DNA of 64,000 nt from an uncultured Pseudomonadota bacterium (lineage in GTDB: Bacteria; Pseudomonadota; Gammaproteobacteria; Burkholderiales; Thiobacillaceae). Below are positions 1-45,157 of this stretch, one piece after another (the first letter of the stretch is position 1; every line of letters starts with the position of its first letter). A model generated the notes under the pieces. It saw only the letters and a list, made by a program, of their open reading frames with translations. It was not told the DNA's origin and did not search any database. The position numbers were made by a program, and so were the translations under genes. Location: contig CAILNT010000007.1 in the NCBI GenBank assembly GCA_903835655.1, positions 1-64,000 on the forward strand, given 5' to 3'.

Positions 1-110
1 AATCGGGCGTGTAGCGGGCTCACCCAGAGGGTGAGCGCGATCGAAGGCACAAACCTCAATACTCATGGGACCTCACGAGGGAATATGAGCGGTCAACTGA
101 GGAATCAAGG
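1..110 (-). repeat. Truncated copy of a 132-bp MITE-like element
   Basis: Bases 4-110 align along their whole length, in inverted orientation, with the element at 40421-40552. Both copies carry the core hairpin around TCACCC and GGGTGA and end in TCAACTGAGGAATCAAGG. The other end lies beyond the window edge. The five bases after the element are ATCAT, the complement of the ATGAT found beside the second copy. This means either a preferred target or that these bases belong to the element. No open reading frame of a transposase accompanies it. Confidence 0.75.
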
Positions 111-548
111 ATCATGCGGGCCAATCCCGCCTATTGCTCACCTTGACCCATGCCGCCGGCGATCAAATCAAGGCCATGGTTGCCAATGTCCGCAAGGGCC
201 TCAATGCCATTCTGACATCTGCGCCTCAGTTGAAGAAAGCCGAACGATGGCCCACGCTCGTGCGCTACATCTTCGACAAAATCCTCGCCGCCAAACCGAA
301 TCTGCCCTCACCATCCTCACTCACAGCTTGGCCTCCTCAGCTCATCGCGGCCGGGTAACAGTGGAATTTAGGATCATCCGGGTGTGATGTACCAAAATCA
401 CGCCGGCATCTAGACTCACCGCCACCTGATGCGCCGCGTGTTTTGCTCGCCACGGGCTAACTGGTCTGGCACCGTATCGATCGTTTGACGGACAGGGTGA
501 ACAGGTTTAGGGTATCGCCTGTTATTACCATGTGATATGAGACCAACT
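111..548. other. Gene-poor stretch between the repeat copy and the toxin-antitoxin pair
   Basis: There is no convincing complete gene here. A short plus-strand frame at 134-358 encodes 74 residues with a helical, lysine-rich look (for example around KKAERWPTLVRYIFDKIL). It could be the tail of a decayed gene, but I do not recognise the family. The last part, from about 485, holds a probable promoter for the toxin-antitoxin pair. Confidence 0.4.
485..513 (+). promoter_or_regulatory. Candidate sigma-70 promoter of the CopG/ParE pair
   Basis: TTGACG (485-490) and TAGGGT (508-513) are separated by exactly 17 bases and lie 36 bases before the antitoxin start. An imperfect dyad (TATC...GATA) directly downstream could be the antitoxin operator, since such antitoxins usually autoregulate. 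The -10 match is weak, so this is a prediction. Confidence 0.4.
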
Positions 549-2649: not shown

Positions 2650-3401
2650 GTTTTTCTCCTGTTGGCTGGCGCGAGTGCTTCGTAGACGGCCAGAATGATC
2701 TGAGATGCCTGGATGAGCGCGCAGACAGTTTTTCCCACACGGATCTCTTTTTCCAGCCTCTCCGCATGGGTCATGGTCGCCAGGAGCAGGCGGCCGCCAG
2801 CCAGGGCGATCGTCACTTCGCTGTCCACCGGGTCGTCCCGGCAGCGCGCCACCGTGCCGCGCAAGCCATGCAGCTGCCCGGCGGCGGACGTGTCGGGCAG
2901 GATTTCCACCCAGGATGGATCGAACAGGGCATGGCAGGCGCAGCCGCTGACCAGGCCAAGATCATCGATGCTGCGCGCCGTGATCTGGGCAGTCAGCTGG
3001 TCACCGCCGCCGAGATCCAGTGTCACCACGGCATTGACCCGTTCCCTGCTGATCAGGCGCACCCGGCAATAGAACTGGTTGCGCGCGCTGGTGCGTTCCT
3101 CGAGTCCGCGCAGGAGTCTTCGGCGCAGGTGGAACTGGCGGAAGGCGCCGCCCTCGGGCACATCCAGAAACCCCATGAAGGCGTGGGCCAGATTATCGGA
3201 CCGCCCCAACAGGACCTGCAAAGGAGCATCCCCGGTGGCGGACGGGAGCAGCGGCACCTCGGACAGGTTGTTGGCCGCCACCAGGGTGTTCCAGACCGGC
3301 CCCTCCGCCACGCCCAAGTCCGCGGCGGCTGAGGCGACCCGCTCCAGCTTCGTTATGTATGGCGCCTTGATAACGCTGGCGACGCGGCAAGGAGTGGCCA
3401 T
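2646..3401 (-). CDS. Nif-operon protein with two C-terminal Mop domains and an unassigned N-terminal domain
   Basis: This protein has 251 residues. Residues about 106-170 (starting SARNQFYCRVRL) and 178-240 are Mop (TOBE-like) molybdate-binding domains, similar to those in ModG and the C-terminus of ModE. The first ~100 residues do not show the winged-helix sequence of ModE, and I do not recognise them. A molybdenum-carrier or sensor role is likely from the domains and from its position directly upstream of nifQ, with overlapping stop and start. It is not a standard ModE regulator. GAGG lies nine bases before the start. Confidence 0.7.
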   Translation of the reverse strand: MATPCRVASVIKAPYITKLERVASAAADLGVAEGPVWNTLVAANNLSEVPLLPSATGDAPLQVLLGRSDNLAHAFMGFLDVPEGGAFRQFHLRRRLLRGLEERTSARNQFYCRVRLISRERVNAVVTLDLGGGDQLTAQITARSIDDLGLVSGCACHALFDPSWVEILPDTSAAGQLHGLRGTVARCRDDPVDSEVTIALAGGRLLLATMTHAERLEKEIRVGKTVCALIQASQIILAVYEALAPANRRKT

Positions 3402-38275: not shown

Positions 38276-39802
38276 ATGCCTCTCGACTACCCTACCCTCG
38301 ACACCCTGCGCCGCAGTCACCCGGCCTGGCGACTGCTGGATTCGCCCCATGCACCGCTGGTGGCGAGCTTTCTGCATCGGGTTTACTTGACGCCCAACGT
38401 GCGAGTGATGGCCCAGGCCGATCTGGTGGAGAAGTTGGAAGACACGCTTTACGGTCTTCGACTCTCTCTGGGCACAGCCGCGTTCCCGCGCACCGCCGCG
38501 CAATACCTGGATGACTGGGCGGCCAACGACAAGGGGTGGTTGCGCAAGTTCTATCCGCCAGGTTCCGATGAAGCCCATTTCGACCTGACCCCCGCCACCG
38601 AGAAAGCCCTGGCTTGGCTGGAAAGTTTGACCCAGCGCGCCTTTGTCGGCACCGAGTCGCGGCTGATGACTGTGTTCGAGTTGCTACGACAAATGGTGGA
38701 AGGCAGCCAGACCGACCCCGACGCGCGCATCCGTGAACTGGAGAGGCGCCGCGCGGAGATCGACACCGAAATCGAACGGGTACGGGCGGGGGACTTGCCG
38801 ATGCTGGACGATACCGAGGTGAAGGATCGCTTCCAGCAGGTGGCGGCGACGGCGCGGGAACTCTTGTCGGATTTCCGCGAAGTGGAACAAAACTTCCGCA
38901 ACCTCGACCGCAGCGTGCGCGAGCGCATCGCCTTATGGGAGCGCCCCCAGGGTCAAGCTGCGCTCAGCCCGCCCCCCGAGGGAGTGCGAGAAAGCCCTGA
39001 GGCGACCCCGCGTGTTAACCGAGAGAGCGGAAAGGGGGCCCTGCTGGAAAGCATCTTTGGCGAACGCGACGCCATTGCCGACTCCGACCAGGGGCGCAGC
39101 TTTCGCGCTTTCTGGGATTTTCTGATGTCGCCAGCCCGGCAGGAGGAGTTGTCGAGCCTGCTAGTTTCGGCCTTCAGCCTGTCGGCGGTGCAGTCTCTGG
39201 CGCCGGACGGGCGCCTGAAGCGGGTCCACTACGACTGGCTGGAGGCCGGCGAACACACCCAGCGCACGGTGGCGCTGTTATCCATGCAGTTGCGCCGCTT
39301 CCTCGACGATCAGGCCTGGCTGGAGAATCGCCGCATCATGGAAATGCTGCACAGCGTCGAAACCCGTGCTCTGGCCGTGCGGGAGGCGCCGCCGGTGGGC
39401 AGTTTCATGGAGCTGGACGAGGCCACGCCCACCGTCGAACTGCCCATGGAGCGCCCCCTGTTTTCGCCACCGATCCGCCCGACCATCACCGAGCAGGTCT
39501 TGCTGGAGGGCGGAGAGGACATCGAGACCGAGGCCTTGTTCGGCCAGGTGGTCGTGGACAAGGCGCGGCTGGCTAGCTGGATTCGCCAGTCTCTCCAGGA
39601 GAAAACCCAGGTCACCTTGGGAGAACTGGTACAACAGCACCCCCTGGAGCACGGACTGGCCGAACTGGTCGCTTGGTTGACCCTGGCCAGCGAGGATCGC
39701 AAGACGGTCTTCGAGGAGGACACGCGGGAATCGATGGACTGGCTGGATACGGCCGGGAGGCAACGGCGGGCGACCTTGCCACGCGTGAGTTTTGTGAGGT
39801 GA
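38276..39802 (+). CDS. jetA: JetA, Wadjet kleisin-like subunit (DUF3375)
   Basis: This 508-residue protein is of the DUF3375 family: N-terminal LDTLRRSHPAWRLLDSPHAP, central coiled coil with DLPMLDDTEVKDRFQQV, and the conserved DSDQGRSFRAFWDFLMSP. In type I Wadjet, JetA bridges the SMC heads of JetC and holds JetB. GGAGGA precedes the start. Residues about 222-253 form a proline/arginine-rich stretch that looks like an insertion relative to the rest. It is the first gene of jetABCD. Confidence 0.92.
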   Translation: MPLDYPTLDTLRRSHPAWRLLDSPHAPLVASFLHRVYLTPNVRVMAQADLVEKLEDTLYGLRLSLGTAAFPRTAAQYLDDWAANDKGWLRKFYPPGSDEAHFDLTPATEKALAWLESLTQRAFVGTESRLMTVFELLRQMVEGSQTDPDARIRELERRRAEIDTEIERVRAGDLPMLDDTEVKDRFQQVAATARELLSDFREVEQNFRNLDRSVRERIALWERPQGQAALSPPPEGVRESPEATPRVNRESGKGALLESIFGERDAIADSDQGRSFRAFWDFLMSPARQEELSSLLVSAFSLSAVQSLAPDGRLKRVHYDWLEAGEHTQRTVALLSMQLRRFLDDQAWLENRRIMEMLHSVETRALAVREAPPVGSFMELDEATPTVELPMERPLFSPPIRPTITEQVLLEGGEDIETEALFGQVVVDKARLASWIRQSLQEKTQVTLGELVQQHPLEHGLAELVAWLTLASEDRKTVFEEDTRESMDWLDTAGRQRRATLPRVSFVR

Positions 39803-39804
39803 GC

Positions 39805-40419
39805 ATGGATACGAACGAAACGAGCCAGGGCGTTTCCCTGCCCCGCGTGCTGGTCGGGCTGATGAAGGGCGTCGTCTATCGTGAGGGCGATGCGCCGCTG
39901 TGGCAGGACTTGCTGGGTTTGCAGGCTCGCGTTCGCGATTACGTTGCGGTGCTGGGTCTGGAACTGATGCTCGATGAGGCCGAGGGCTATGCCTTCCTGC
40001 GCACCCGACTGGTCCCCGATGGAGAGCCCGACTTGCCGCGCCTGGTGCAGCGCCGCGCCTTGTCCTTCCCGGTCAGCCTGCTGCTCGCGCTGCTGCGCAA
40101 GAAGCTGGCCGAGTTCGACGCCGGCGGCTGCGAGGGGGGCAGCCGACTGATTCTGTCCCGGGATGAGGTGGTCGAACTGATCCGGGTCTTTCTGCCCTCG
40201 GGCAGCAACGAGGCGAAATTGATCGACCAGGTGGAAACCCACCTCAACAAGATCATCGAACTGGGTTTCGTCCGCCGCCTGAAAGCACCCGGCGGCGACC
40301 AGGCATTCGAGGTACGCCGCCTCCTCAAGGCCTTCGTCGACGCCCAATGGCTGGCGGAATTCGACCAACGCCTGGCAGGGTATCGGGCGCAGTTGGGTGA
40401 ACAGGAGGCATCGGAATGA
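39805..40419 (+). CDS. jetB: JetB, Wadjet KITE-like subunit (DUF4194)
   Basis: This 204-residue DUF4194 protein consists of winged-helix segments (LSFPVSLLLALLRKKLAEF; LSRDEVVELIRVFLP; VETHLNKIIELGFVRRL). It binds JetA as the MukE-like partner. The start at 39805 lies two bases after the jetA stop with GAGG upstream; the longer frame overlapping jetA is not used. Its TGA lies within an ATGAT target duplication of the inserted element. Confidence 0.9.
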   Translation: MDTNETSQGVSLPRVLVGLMKGVVYREGDAPLWQDLLGLQARVRDYVAVLGLELMLDEAEGYAFLRTRLVPDGEPDLPRLVQRRALSFPVSLLLALLRKKLAEFDAGGCEGGSRLILSRDEVVELIRVFLPSGSNEAKLIDQVETHLNKIIELGFVRRLKAPGGDQAFEVRRLLKAFVDAQWLAEFDQRLAGYRAQLGEQEASE

Positions 40420-40420
40420 T

Positions 40421-40552
40421 CCTTGATTCCTCAGTTGACCGCTCATTTCCCCCCGTGAGGCCCCATGAACATTGAGGATTGCGCCTTCGATCACGCTCAC
40501 CCTTTGGGTGAACTCGCTACGCACTCGGGCGTGTTCAACTGAGGATTCAAGG
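40421..40552 (+). mobile_element. 132-bp MITE-like element between jetB and jetC
   Basis: Terminal inverted repeats are CCTTGATTCCTCAGTTGA (40421-40438) and TCAACTGAGGATTCAAGG (40535-40552), 17 of 18 matching. Direct repeats ATGAT flank it at 40416-40420 and 40553-40557. A second, truncated copy lies at 1-110. It has no coding capacity, so it depends on a transposase elsewhere. Removing it with one ATGAT restores GGAATGATCCAGG, in which the jetB stop and jetC start overlap as ATGA. Its right end supplies GAGG for jetC translation. The 5-bp duplication and CC-starting ends recall IS1380-like elements, but this is unproven. Confidence 0.85.
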
Positions 40553-43500
40553 ATGATCCAGGCCGACCAACTCGATTTCTCCGCCTGCGACGATCAGGCT
40601 GCCCACGAGGCCCAGGCCGGTTTCCGCCTGCACCGCCTGGAGGTCTACAACTGGGGCACCTTCGACCGACGGGTGTGGTCGCTCGCACCCAACGGCGAAA
40701 ACGCGCTGCTGACCGGCGACATCGGTTCCGGCAAGTCCACCTTGGTGGACGCGGTCACCACCCTGCTGGTTCCGGCCCATCGCATTGCCTACAACAAGGC
40801 GGCTGGCGCGGAGGCGCGCGAGCGCACCCTGCGCTCCTACGTGCTGGGCCATTACAAGTCGGAGCGTACCGACTCGGGCCTGGCGGCCAAACCGGTGGCG
40901 CTGCGCGACCACAACGCCTATTCCGTGATCCTCGGCGTGTTCCGCAATACCGGCTTCGACCAGACCGTGACCCTGGCTCAGGTGTTCTGGCTGAAGGATG
41001 TACAAGGCCAGCCTGCGCGCTTCTTTGTGGCTTCGGAGGGAACGCTGTCCGTTGCCCAGGACTTCGCCGGCTTCGGCAGCGACATCAACGACTTGCGCCG
41101 CCGCCTGCGCGCCCGGCGCGGCATCGAGCTGCACGACAGTTTTCCGCCTTACGGCGCCTGGTTCCGCCGCCGCTTCGGCATCGAGAACGAGCAGGCGATG
41201 GAGTTGTTCCATCAGACGGTATCCATGAAGTCGGTCGGCAACCTCACCGACTTCGTGCGCGAACACATGCTGGAAGCCTTCGATGTGGAAACCCGCATCC
41301 ATGCCTTGATTCACCATTTCGACGATCTCAATCGGGCGCATGCCGCCGTGCTCAAGGCCAAGGATCAGGTAGCGCGCCTGCAACCTCTGGTGGCGGATTG
41401 TGGCCACCACACCGAGCTGGCCGCCAAGGTGGACGATCTGCGTGCGGCGCGTGTAGCCCTCAAAGCCTGGTTCGCCGATTTGAAGGCGGGGTTGCTGGAG
41501 AAGCGCCTGGCTGGCCTGGAAATCGAACACCAGCGCGGCGCGGCGCGCATCTGCACGCTTGACGAAGCCCGGCGCGGACTCTGGGCGCAGCGCGATCAAC
41601 TCAAGCGCGACATCGCCGAAAATGGGGGCAATCGCCTAGCCTGGATAGCCACTGAAATCGGCGGCAAGGAAACCGAGAAACAGCGGCGCTTGCAACGTGC
41701 CGAGCGCTACGGCGAGCTGGCGCGGGAATTGGGGCTGTTGCCGCTGACCGGGCCGGAGCGTTTCGTAAGCCATCGCGGCATGTGCGAGGGCCTGAGCGGA
41801 AAATTGCGCGAGAAGGAGGCCGAACAGCAGAACCGCCAGACCGAGGCCGGTGTCGACCTGCGCACCCACAAAGGCGAGCACGACCAGTTGCAACAGGAAC
41901 TGGCCGGCCTGCGCGGCAGGCGCAGCAACATCGACGAATCCCAGGTGGCCATCCGCCGCGCCCTGTGCGCCGCCCTGAAGCTGACTGAAGCCGATCTGCC
42001 CTTCGCCGGCGAGCTGATCCAGGTGCGTCCCGAGGAGAAGGCATGGGAGGGCGCGGCGGAGAGGCTGCTGCATAACTTCGGCCTGTCGCTGCTGGTGCCG
42101 GATCGGCACTATACGGCGGTAGCGGAATGGGTGGATCGCACCCAGTTGCGCGGTCGGTTGGTCTACTACCGAGTTCGGGAAAGCGCCGGTACCAGCATGC
42201 CAGACATGAATCCGGACTCCCTGCCGCGCAAACTCACCCTCAAGCCGGACTCGCCCTTCTACGGCTGGATCGAACGGGAACTGGCGAAGCGCTTCGACTA
42301 CATCTGCTGCGACAATCTGGACCAGTTCCGCCGCGAGCGCCAGGCGGTGACCCGTGCCGGCCAGGTCAAGGCCGGAGGCGAACGTCACGAGAAGGACGAC
42401 CGCCATCGGCTGGACGACCGCAGCCGCTACGTCCTGGGCTGGAGCAACGAGGGCAAGATCGCCGCCCTGGAGAGTCGTGCCCTGTCGTTGGAAAAGGACA
42501 TGCAAGCCGCGGCGGCACGCATCGCCGAGGCCCAGGCGGAACTGAAACGGGTGTCGGAGCAGATCACCAATCTGGCGCGGATCGGTGAATTCCGCGACTA
42601 CCAGGAACTGGACTGGCAGCCTCTGGTGGCGGACATCGCCCAGCTGGAATTGGAGAAGCGAACGCTGGAAGCCGCCTCCGATTTACTGTACAGCCTGACC
42701 GGCCAGTTGACCACACTGGAGGCGGCGCTCGACCAGACCGAACGGGAGTTACGCGAGCGCAATCAGGACCAAGCCCGCAACGAGGAAAAACAACGCCATG
42801 CCCACGTTCTGCTGGCCGATTGCCAGGCCAGCCTGGCGAGCCTGGAGGCCGCCGCGCGGCAGCTGCGTTTCCCCCAACTGGAGGCCATGCGCGCCGAAGC
42901 CTTGGGCGAGCAGATGCTCACCGTGGAATCCTGCGACAACCGCGAACGAGACATGCGCGACTGGCTGCAAAGCAGGATCGACGCCGAGGATGGTCGCACC
43001 AAGCGGCTGCGCGACAAGATCATCGACGCCATGCGCGCCTACAGCCTCGCCTACCCGCTGGAAACCCAGGAAGTCGACGTCAGCCTCGAAGCCGCCCGCG
43101 AATACCGTGTGATGCTGAACGACTTGCAGGCCGACGATCTGCCGAAGTTCGAGGCACGCTTCAAGGAACTGCTCAACGAGAACACCATCCGCGAGGTGGC
43201 CAATTTCCAGTCCCAGCTCGCCCGCGAACGGCAGAGCATCAAGGAGCGCATCGGACGCATCAACCAGTCGCTACGCCAGATCGACTACAACCCAGGCCGC
43301 TACATCGAACTGGAAGCGCAGACCAGCCCGGACCCCGAGATTCGGGATTTCCAGAGCGAACTGCGGGCCTGTACCGACGGGGCGCTGACCGGTTCCGAGG
43401 ACGCCCAGTATTCCGAGGCGAAATTCCTTCAGGTGAAGGCCATCATCGAGCGGTTCCGCGGCCGCGAGGGCCAGACCGACCAGGACCGGCGCTGGACCCG

Positions 43501-43954
43501 CAAGGTCACCGATGTGCGCAACGGCTACGCATTCGCGGCCGCCGAGCGTTGGCGGGAAGATGACAAGGAATACGAGCACTACACCGACTCGGGCGGCAAG
43601 TCAGGCGGCCAGAAGGAAAAACTGGCCTACACCGTGCTGGCCGCCAGCCTGGCCTATCAATTCGGACTCGAGTGGGGTGCGGTTCGCTCTCGCACATTCC
43701 GCTTCGTGGTCATCGACGAGGCCTTCGGTCGCGGCTCCGATGAATCCGCACGCTTTGGCCTGGAACTGTTCAAGCGACTGAACCTGCAACTGCTCATCGT
43801 CACACCCTTGCAGAAGATCCACATCATCGAACCCTATGTGGCCAGCGTCGGCTTCGTACACAACGAGGAAGGGCGCGAATCCCTGCTGCGCAATCTCAGC
43901 ATCGCCGAATACCGGGCCGAGAAGGAAAGACACGCGGAGGCGCACGGTGCGTAG
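40553..43954 (+). CDS. jetC: JetC, Wadjet SMC-like ATPase
   Basis: This 1133-residue protein is a condensin-like motor with a head-coil-hinge-coil-head plan. Walker A is GDIGSGKST (residues 55-63), the long coiled coils run about 280-480 and 660-960, the signature is [10 protein letters not shown] (from 1017) and Walker B is [11 protein letters not shown] (about 1050). ATP-driven loop extrusion lets the complex measure closed circular DNA. ATG at 40553, right after the inserted element, begins the conserved N-terminus; the frame open from 40472 translates the element. Confidence 0.94.
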
Positions 43955-43960
43955 CCGGCA

Positions 43961-45157
43961 GTGCGATGCGACGTGAGTGACTGGACCACGCCTGCCGACC
44001 TCCGCGCCCGCGTGCTACGGGAATGGGACCGTGGTCACCTGCTGTCTGCAACACTGACCGGAGAGGCTCTGTATCCCTGGCGCATCCCCCTGAAATGCCC
44101 ATCTTCCACCGAGTTGGCCGGCAGTTTTGACGCGGTTCGACAGTGGATACGCGAGCTTGCCGACAGTGCCAAGACGGAGGGCAAACCCGGCTACCGGCTT
44201 GAATTCCAGGAAATAAACCATCGCCAACTCGGTCGCAACCATGTGCCTGTCGCGGCCTGGCTCGATACGGAAGCGGACGCACTGGCCCTGATCGGCAAAC
44301 GCCGCGAGGCTGCCCAGTTCCAGGAACTGGCCGGCGCGATTGCCCTCGCCTTCCCGCCTCTGCACGACTGGCTGGTCAGGCGCCCCTTGCGAGTACTGGA
44401 ACACGCGGAGGATTGGCCGCGCCTGCTGGGGGTGCTGGGCTGGGTCGTGGCGCACCCGCGTCCGGACGTGTACCTGCGCCAGATCGACGTGGCTGGCGTG
44501 CACAGTAAATTCATCGAGCGACAACGCGGGCTGCTCACCGAACTGCTGGAGCGGATACTGCCGGCACATGTCATCGATACAGCGGCCCCCACGGGAGTGG
44601 CCGTCTTCGAGCGGCGCTACGGCTTCCGTGCCAAACCGGCACTGATACGCTTCCGCCTGCCCCAAGGCGGTATGCATGGTCTCACCGACTTGACCGTGCC
44701 CGCCGACGAGTTCGCCCTCTTGTCGCTTCCAGCCGCACAGATATTCATCACAGAAAACGAAATCAATTTCCTGGCCTTCCCGCTGACCCCCAACAGACTG
44801 GTGATCTTCGGCTCCGGCTATGGCTTTGACGCATGGGCCGAGGCCCACTGGTTGCGGGCGCGGGAGATAATCTACTGGGGTGACATCGACACCCACGGCT
44901 TCGCCATCCTCGACCAGTTGCGCGGCCGTTTTCCGCAGGCCCACTCCTTGTTGATGGACCGGACGACCCTGCTGGCCCACCGGCCGCTCTGGGGACGGGA
45001 AGACACGCCGACCCGGCGGGAATTGAGCCGGCTGTATCCCGATGAAGCCAGTTTGTACGACGAACTGCGCCAGGATCGGATCGCACCGGCGCTGCGCCTG
45101 GAGCAGGAGCGCATCGGCTATGCCTGGGTTCAGGCCGCGCTGGCCGGGTACGAATAG
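43961..45157 (+). CDS. jetD: JetD, Wadjet Toprim nuclease (DUF3322/DUF2220)
   Basis: This 398-residue protein has an N-terminal DNA-binding part (DUF3322, about 1-190) and a C-terminal Toprim domain (DUF2220) with E in FITENEINF (about 265-267) and the DxD pair D308/D310 in IIYWGDIDTHG. JetD cuts small circular plasmids after JetABC has stalled on them. The start is GTG at 43961 or 43973; both are close to the jetC stop. All four type I subunits are intact and in the order A-B-C-D. Confidence 0.93.
   Translation: MRCDVSDWTTPADLRARVLREWDRGHLLSATLTGEALYPWRIPLKCPSSTELAGSFDAVRQWIRELADSAKTEGKPGYRLEFQEINHRQLGRNHVPVAAWLDTEADALALIGKRREAAQFQELAGAIALAFPPLHDWLVRRPLRVLEHAEDWPRLLGVLGWVVAHPRPDVYLRQIDVAGVHSKFIERQRGLLTELLERILPAHVIDTAAPTGVAVFERRYGFRAKPALIRFRLPQGGMHGLTDLTVPADEFALLSLPAAQIFITENEINFLAFPLTPNRLVIFGSGYGFDAWAEAHWLRAREIIYWGDIDTHGFAILDQLRGRFPQAHSLLMDRTTLLAHRPLWGREDTPTRRELSRLYPDEASLYDELRQDRIAPALRLEQERIGYAWVQAALAGYE

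Follow-up and report, generated by a model that had tools for sequence, protein, structure and literature searches.

In an uncultured bacterium, the jetB and jetC genes of a type I Wadjet operon are separated by one copy of a non-autonomous transposon (MITE) whose family, judged from its copies, lands on start codons more often than on intergenic sites that carry an identical 5-mer. The insertion, its duplication, the target rule, the empty sites, the excess at start codons and a GAGG carried by the arm can all be read in the DNA itself. It is probable that the family couples the gene it lands on to a leader: an element of this kind, moved by an IS1380-type transposase into WTSAW targets, would insert at a start codon and make the new start dependent on translation of the leader.

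The element between jetB and jetC

Wadjet (jetABCD) is a bacterial plasmid-defence system. In the window (the whole stretch of 64,000 nucleotides that was analysed), jetA (38276..39802, +), jetB (39805..40419, +), jetC (40553..43954, +) and jetD (43973..45157, +) lie adjacent on one strand and match the PADLOC profiles JetA1, JetB1, JetC1 and JetD1 (best E-values of 8.2e-219, 2.9e-88, 0 and 3.5e-147, respectively), as expected of Wadjet type I. Gene starts and stops are those of our own codon-usage gene caller, which together with the profiles places jetB, jetC and jetD; jetA is given from its profile.

The MITE copy is 132 bp long (40421..40552, forward orientation) and fits exactly between jetB and jetC. 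Its terminal arms, CCTTGATTCCTCAGTTGA (40421..40438, +) and TCAACTGAGGATTCAAGG (40535..40552, +), are identical at 17/18 positions, as the initial annotation had it, and an inverted-repeat search recovers the same pair, stretching it to 23 nt at 91 %; the left arm is also returned by the arm-pattern search. The ATGAT on the left (40416..40420, +) contains the jetB stop (TGA, 40417-40419) as well as the first codon of a leader frame, and the ATGAT on the right (40553..40557, +) contains the jetC start (ATG 40553), so that the gene caller bears out the placing of stop and start in the two duplicates. In the nearest relative (genome G008), jetC begins at the equivalent position. The GAGG said to be supplied for jetC is present in the right arm (40541-40544), 8 nt 5′ of the jetC ATG. 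Within jetB there is an AGGAGG (40403..40408, +), 7 nt 5′ of the left ATG, which is presumed to be the original ribosome site of jetC.

The initial annotation held that the insertion unlinks jetB and jetC without changing either protein. The insertion and the unchanged proteins stand, but the unlinking is too simple, because the AGGAGG and the left ATG open a leader frame of 19 codons (40416..40475, +) that spans the entire left arm. This copy is a forward one, and its leader stops 77 nt short of the element's end, making any coupling at jetB/jetC indirect. It had also been proposed that the element may alter the JetB:JetC ratio or add a promoter. That it supplies a promoter for jetC, or terminates the jetB message, is suggested by its position alone and is very improbable: a consensus scan of 40300-40700, restricted for promoters to the sigma-70 type, returned 0 promoters and 0 intrinsic terminators, and no known RNA family in Rfam matched 40000-41000.

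Copies, target duplication and empty sites

The arm pattern (≤3 mismatches) has 120 matches in the genome that contains the operon, against 2 for the reversed control, and BLAST with 142 bp (element plus duplicates) returns 71 matching pieces, in which the two ends of a single copy are often counted separately; the element is therefore not a chance arrangement. Of the 120 arm matches, 100 were located, and only located places entered the analyses of copies. There are 29 two-armed copies of more than 100 bp in this genome, the shortest being the one at jetB/jetC; the other 28 measure 222-404 bp, and BLAST shows that the jetB/jetC copy lacks the stretch beyond position ~107. A second copy in the window (1..115, −), noted earlier at 1-110 with ATCAT beside it, is real; it is truncated at the contig end, and its ATCAT lies at 111-115. 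Contigs C20, C25, C58, C100, C104 and C121, like the window start (1-110), begin or end within a copy. The assembly is thus interrupted by the family and gives minimum copy numbers, with two-armed copies under-counted because many contigs end within copies.

Family matches were found in 29 of the 61 genomes searched: the source genome itself, 21 of the other 22 in its genus and, with weak matches, 7 that are more distant. The exact arm with its target occurs in 59 stretches among named betaproteobacterial MAG records (the genome studied here is possibly not among them), including Hydrogenophilales, Thiobacillus, Gallionellaceae and Azonexus. Judged by such relatives, the source genome is probably related to Hydrogenophilales/Thiobacillus. 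Viral contigs gave 0 stretches with the exact arm pattern, and the one plasmid match was to a Polaromonas plasmid (69 % over 77 % of the query).

Target duplication was assessed in 41 two-armed copies of more than 100 bp, the 29 above and 12 from genomes G008 and G022. The left and right five flanking bases are identical in 26 of these, in 12 forms when read in element orientation; in the remaining 15 at least one of the five differs. Among the 26 perfect duplications T is found at position 2 and A at position 4 in every case, and in 23 the middle base is G or C, giving the rule WTSAW. The initial annotation had left open whether the five bases might be part of the element; their variation between copies shows them to be a target duplication. 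Start codons and ATGA stop/start overlaps look just like the targets used most often (ATGAT, ATGAA and their complements).

Empty sites were sought by removing the element from 26 copies of the source genome, joining the flanks and comparing them with G008, the assembly of which is incomplete. Twelve of the 26 queries aligned across the junction. Eight of these show an orthologous site without the element at 84-94 % identity, seven of them ungapped (jetB/jetC, a response-regulator/kinase pair, hflK/hflC, and loci L083, L086, L091 and L124); in the eighth, L115, the gaps lie away from the junction. The alignments of L071, L074 and L075 are weak or gapped at the junction, and the joined flanks of L112 align in G008 only to a dispersed repeat. 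Two further queries were split, L101 by a copy that is present in G008 and the one at L119 7001 by 222 unrelated bases; three matched with a single flank and nine not at all. The L119 7001 site might be taken for an occupied one in G008; since the 222 bp at that place (L260, about 1279-1500) are unlike the family, it was counted neither as occupied nor as empty. At L112 (around 3076-3324) the copy sits inside another dispersed repeat, which occurs several times in G008 (L263-L268).

At jetB/jetC the empty site aligns without gaps, GTAATGGCCCAAA in G008 against GGAATGATCCAGG in the source genome after deletion of the element with one ATGAT. The same junction without the element in the nearest relative supports an insertion that leaves both proteins intact. 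The expected empty site was thus recovered as an ungapped junction, but not to the letter: the two genes in G008 meet at GTAATGGCC, with TAATG instead of ATGA. A strong jetC match was found in 11 other genomes, in seven of which jetB lies directly 5′ of jetC, and none of the seven has the element; in the other four a different gene precedes jetC. That the element is a fixed spacer of the Wadjet operon and not a mobile insertion, which the initial annotation had named as its refutation, is itself refuted by these seven relatives and by the many copies elsewhere in the genome. A ParDE-like pair (named by eye) lies after jetB and before jetC in genomes G016 (L172) and G017 (L180), and jetC is preceded by a DUF1016-like gene (also by eye) in G021 (L171) and by another gene in G010 (L173); the junction of jetB and jetC seems to have taken up inserts more than once. 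Being short, with inverted repeats, no transposase gene, a variable duplication and empty sites, the element is by its sequence characters a MITE.

Preference for start codons

A start codon, taken as the first three bases after the arm, directly abuts the arm in 20 of 71 copies and remnants in the source genome (13 of 31 two-armed), compared with 65 of the 532 WTNAW sites that lie outside genes (p = 2.4e-4). Without the gene caller's bonus for ribosome sites the count is 19 of 71 (p = 6e-4). When copies were matched on the exact 5-mer to intergenic sites, 12 of 27 were at starts against 4.9 expected (P = 6e-4); this test leaves out two copies of the 29 (one a start-site copy), as their flank is not WTNAW. 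In other species the two-armed copies show the same preference (11 of 31, p = 0.0012). Among one-armed copies, with 3 of 36, there is no excess, and the total is 14 of 67 at a start codon (p = 0.045 against a WTSAW null). The Fisher p-values given here and below are optimistic because copies share ancestry. One-armed matches with more than 2 mismatches were excluded from both counts, as was one locus of less than 1000 bp from that of the other species; the 31 two-armed pairs of the source genome include two of 50 bp, in L076 and L090, which lie outside the target-rule, 5-mer-matched and leader-frame sets.

It might be argued that this is a plain MITE with an A+T-leaning 5-bp target, which hits starts since ATGAW is a good target and intragenic insertions are lost, the frames and hairpins being by-products without effect. 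We regard this as rather unlikely. The strictness of the target rule is in its favour, as are the 51 of 71 copies in the source genome with no start codon directly at the visible arm and the one-armed copies of other species without excess; against it, the excess persists after exact 5-mer matching and exclusion of intragenic sites.

One start codon carries copies in two species of the genus (L101 3046-3267 in the source genome, G000, and L133 2991-3239 in G008), of different subfamilies and in opposite orientation, which, on their sequences, suggests independent insertions at one site. Single-arm remnants adjoin gene starts at L073 7483-7500, L077 3018-3035 and L117 3026-3043, the last keeping ~55 bp of the element; they look as if the ribosome-site end alone had been kept, while other remnants are not at starts.

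Ribosome sites and leader frames

The arm on the gene side carries GAGG 8 nt 5′ of the start codon in 16 of 17 start-site copies, the exception being L124. The distal duplicate retains what originally lay upstream, together with the old start codon. A ribosome-site-like motif precedes that codon in 12 of the 17; its absence in the other five counts against the leader-coupling account. From this start, forward copies have the 19-codon leader frame in five of six cases (the sixth has AGG at the start position). In reverse copies the frame runs through the whole element in 9 of 11 and stops at the TGA of a rebuilt overlap, which reads ATGA, or TTGA in L073; in the reverse copy at hflK/hflC this leader is 95 codons long and its overlap reads ATGA.

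In a larger set, the leader frame is open through the element in 12 of 15 reverse start-site copies and in 13 of 49 other copies (p = 3e-4). The difference is seen in the source genome (8 of 9 vs 9 of 20, p = 0.03) as well as in other genomes (4 of 6 vs 4 of 29, p = 0.016). A frame that crosses the whole element and ends on the start of the host gene requires a length divisible by three, which is found in 13 of the 15 compared with 21 of the 49.

Changes per site at the three codon positions of the leader are 0.078, 0.092 and 0.087 (28 copies of the source genome), with no sign of selection; third positions are not favoured, therefore the leader peptide itself does not look selected. Pfam searches with three leader peptides returned nothing but a hit to DUF2385 (E = 0.13) that falls below the cut-off of that family, and one leader peptide compared with plasmid sequences had no match. 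It is at best the openness of the frame, not the peptide, that could be kept, as far as these alignments tell. The lack of selection on the peptide fits a plain MITE, but open frames are concentrated where they would be translated toward the gene, and copies with closed frames are not more diverged than those with open ones, neither of which a plain MITE would lead one to expect. Reverse start-site copies are slightly younger than the others (divergence 0.071 vs 0.091), a point against the leader-coupling account. The codon-position and divergence alignments comprised 57 copies of at least 190 bases, target duplications included.

The whole-element frames allow a further reading, which we hold only tentatively: a mobile cistron without a start or stop of its own, for which duplication of an ATGA target would give ATG at one end and TGA at the other. 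In the productive orientation a ribosome would read through to the next gene at the rebuilt ATGA, so that the element would be invisible to translation of the operon, with selection on openness and not on the peptide.

Predicted folding and a proposed leader-coupling model

In the predicted fold of the operon RNA the two arms pair and enclose the ribosome site and start of jetC (z = -2.18; 7 of 200 shuffles were as good). Arm-arm pairing is expected of any inverted repeat, which weakens the argument from folding. To open the ribosome site and AUG is predicted to cost, on average over 25 start-site copies, 19.3 kcal/mol with the element, 7.3 kcal/mol with the distal arm occupied and 7.8 kcal/mol at the empty site. 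For jetC the predicted values are 20.6, 5.7 and 11.1 kcal/mol, respectively. The cost drops by at least 3.4 kcal/mol on occupation of the distal arm in 24 of the 25 copies; in L233 there is no drop.

The same long stem would suit an element that is mainly an RNA processing site, the paired arms being cut by an RNase or protecting ends and so setting the jetB and jetC messages apart. RNase-mediated cleavage of MITE-containing transcripts has been described (PMC10969869), as has RNase E exposure for ERIC (PMC2229807). This is nevertheless unlikely, as it leaves the start-codon preference and the open frame unexplained.

In the leader-coupling model a MITE, probably moved by an IS1380-type transposase, duplicates a 5-bp WTSAW target, and insertion at a start codon leaves the upstream stop and the old start in one duplicate, with a fresh start in the other beside the GAGG of the arm. 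In the mRNA the two arms would pair and bury the new start. From the reading frames and the folding, in which the gene start is freed only with the distal arm occupied, we infer that translation of the leader frees the next start: the ribosome that formerly started the gene would start the leader at the distal duplicate, cross the distal arm and so expose the new start. In reverse orientation the leader would usually run through the whole element and stop on the rebuilt ATGA. By way of the 19-codon leader, translation of jetC would stay dependent on that of jetB and the leader. Translational coupling would thus be rebuilt rather than lost.

Candidate transposase

The mover is likely to be an IS1380-type transposase. 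The IS1380 family makes duplications of 4-5 bp (PMC12116815), within which the 5 bp of the MITE fall; a published member of the ISEc9/ISEcp1 type has the end CCTAGATTC, from the IRL ACGTAGAATCTAGG (PMC12116815). In G184, a genome of the same order, an IS1380-type IS is present in four identical copies (L289, L296, L298 and L300) with 5-bp duplications TTCAT, CTCAT, TTCAA and TTCAT, close to the WTSAW rule; its ends, CCCAAATTTCCCATTAGCC, are unrelated to the MITE arms. An IS1380-type IS from the genus (L154), both ends of which read CCCTGAATCCGCARGTT, has one end that is 14/18 like the MITE arm, and its flanking bases show no matching duplication. The IS1380 of the source genome (L150) has ends unlike the MITE arm. 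No autonomous element with these arms was found among the loci covered. L156, where a 42-bp MITE-like end lies near a transposase fragment, was rejected as a parent: what separates the two is a conserved sequence in its own right (rhodanese-like by eye).

Comparison with known elements

Gene-dense operons offer mobile DNA few safe sites. The way of life of this family in operons is to land on a start codon, duplicate it and bring its own ribosome site, often with a readable frame. The wider result is that start codons serve this MITE family as sites and that its copies tend to stay readable in frame up to the following gene; the functional reading is drawn from frames and folds. If the leader-coupling model is true, the 25 start-site copies are natural replicates for coupling broken and rebuilt, seven of them with an empty orthologous site in G008, and they include a multi-subunit defence machine in which the ratio of subunits may matter. 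None of the titles and abstract openings returned by a literature search describes a MITE with this start-codon rule.

By title, the nearest precedent is the Chunjie MITE of Geobacter uraniireducens, which the title of the original paper describes as leaving operon structure undisturbed. It is alike in having many copies, of 178-235 bp, one of them in an operon (PMC10969869); the review holds the copy in question to be disruptive to one of two operons for phosphate uptake (PMC10969869). It differs in that a start-codon target, ribosome sites in the arms and a leader ending on ATGA go unmentioned in the review's account of it (PMC10969869). MITEAba12 of Acinetobacter, a MITE of 111-114 bp, was tied to its parent IS by arms and duplication, but is reported to have 9-bp duplications without sequence trend, stops in all six frames and proposed outward promoters (PMC6382973). 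ERIC/RU-1, Correia and RUP are also MITE-like palindromes, and effects on transcripts have been proposed for them; compared by description only, they have no start-codon rule in the account given of them (PMC2229807). The MITE resembles IS1380 elements of the ISEc9/ISEcp1 type at the end, the published one matching 8/9 bases of CCTTGATTC (PMC12116815); it differs from them in having no transposase, and no IS with the exact MITE arms was found. The Rickettsia palindromic elements are alike in being small and repeated and in having a reading frame with which insertion into coding DNA is tolerated (PMC10969869). As described there, they fuse in frame inside genes, whereas the start-site copies of the present family are intergenic and take their start and stop from the target duplication.
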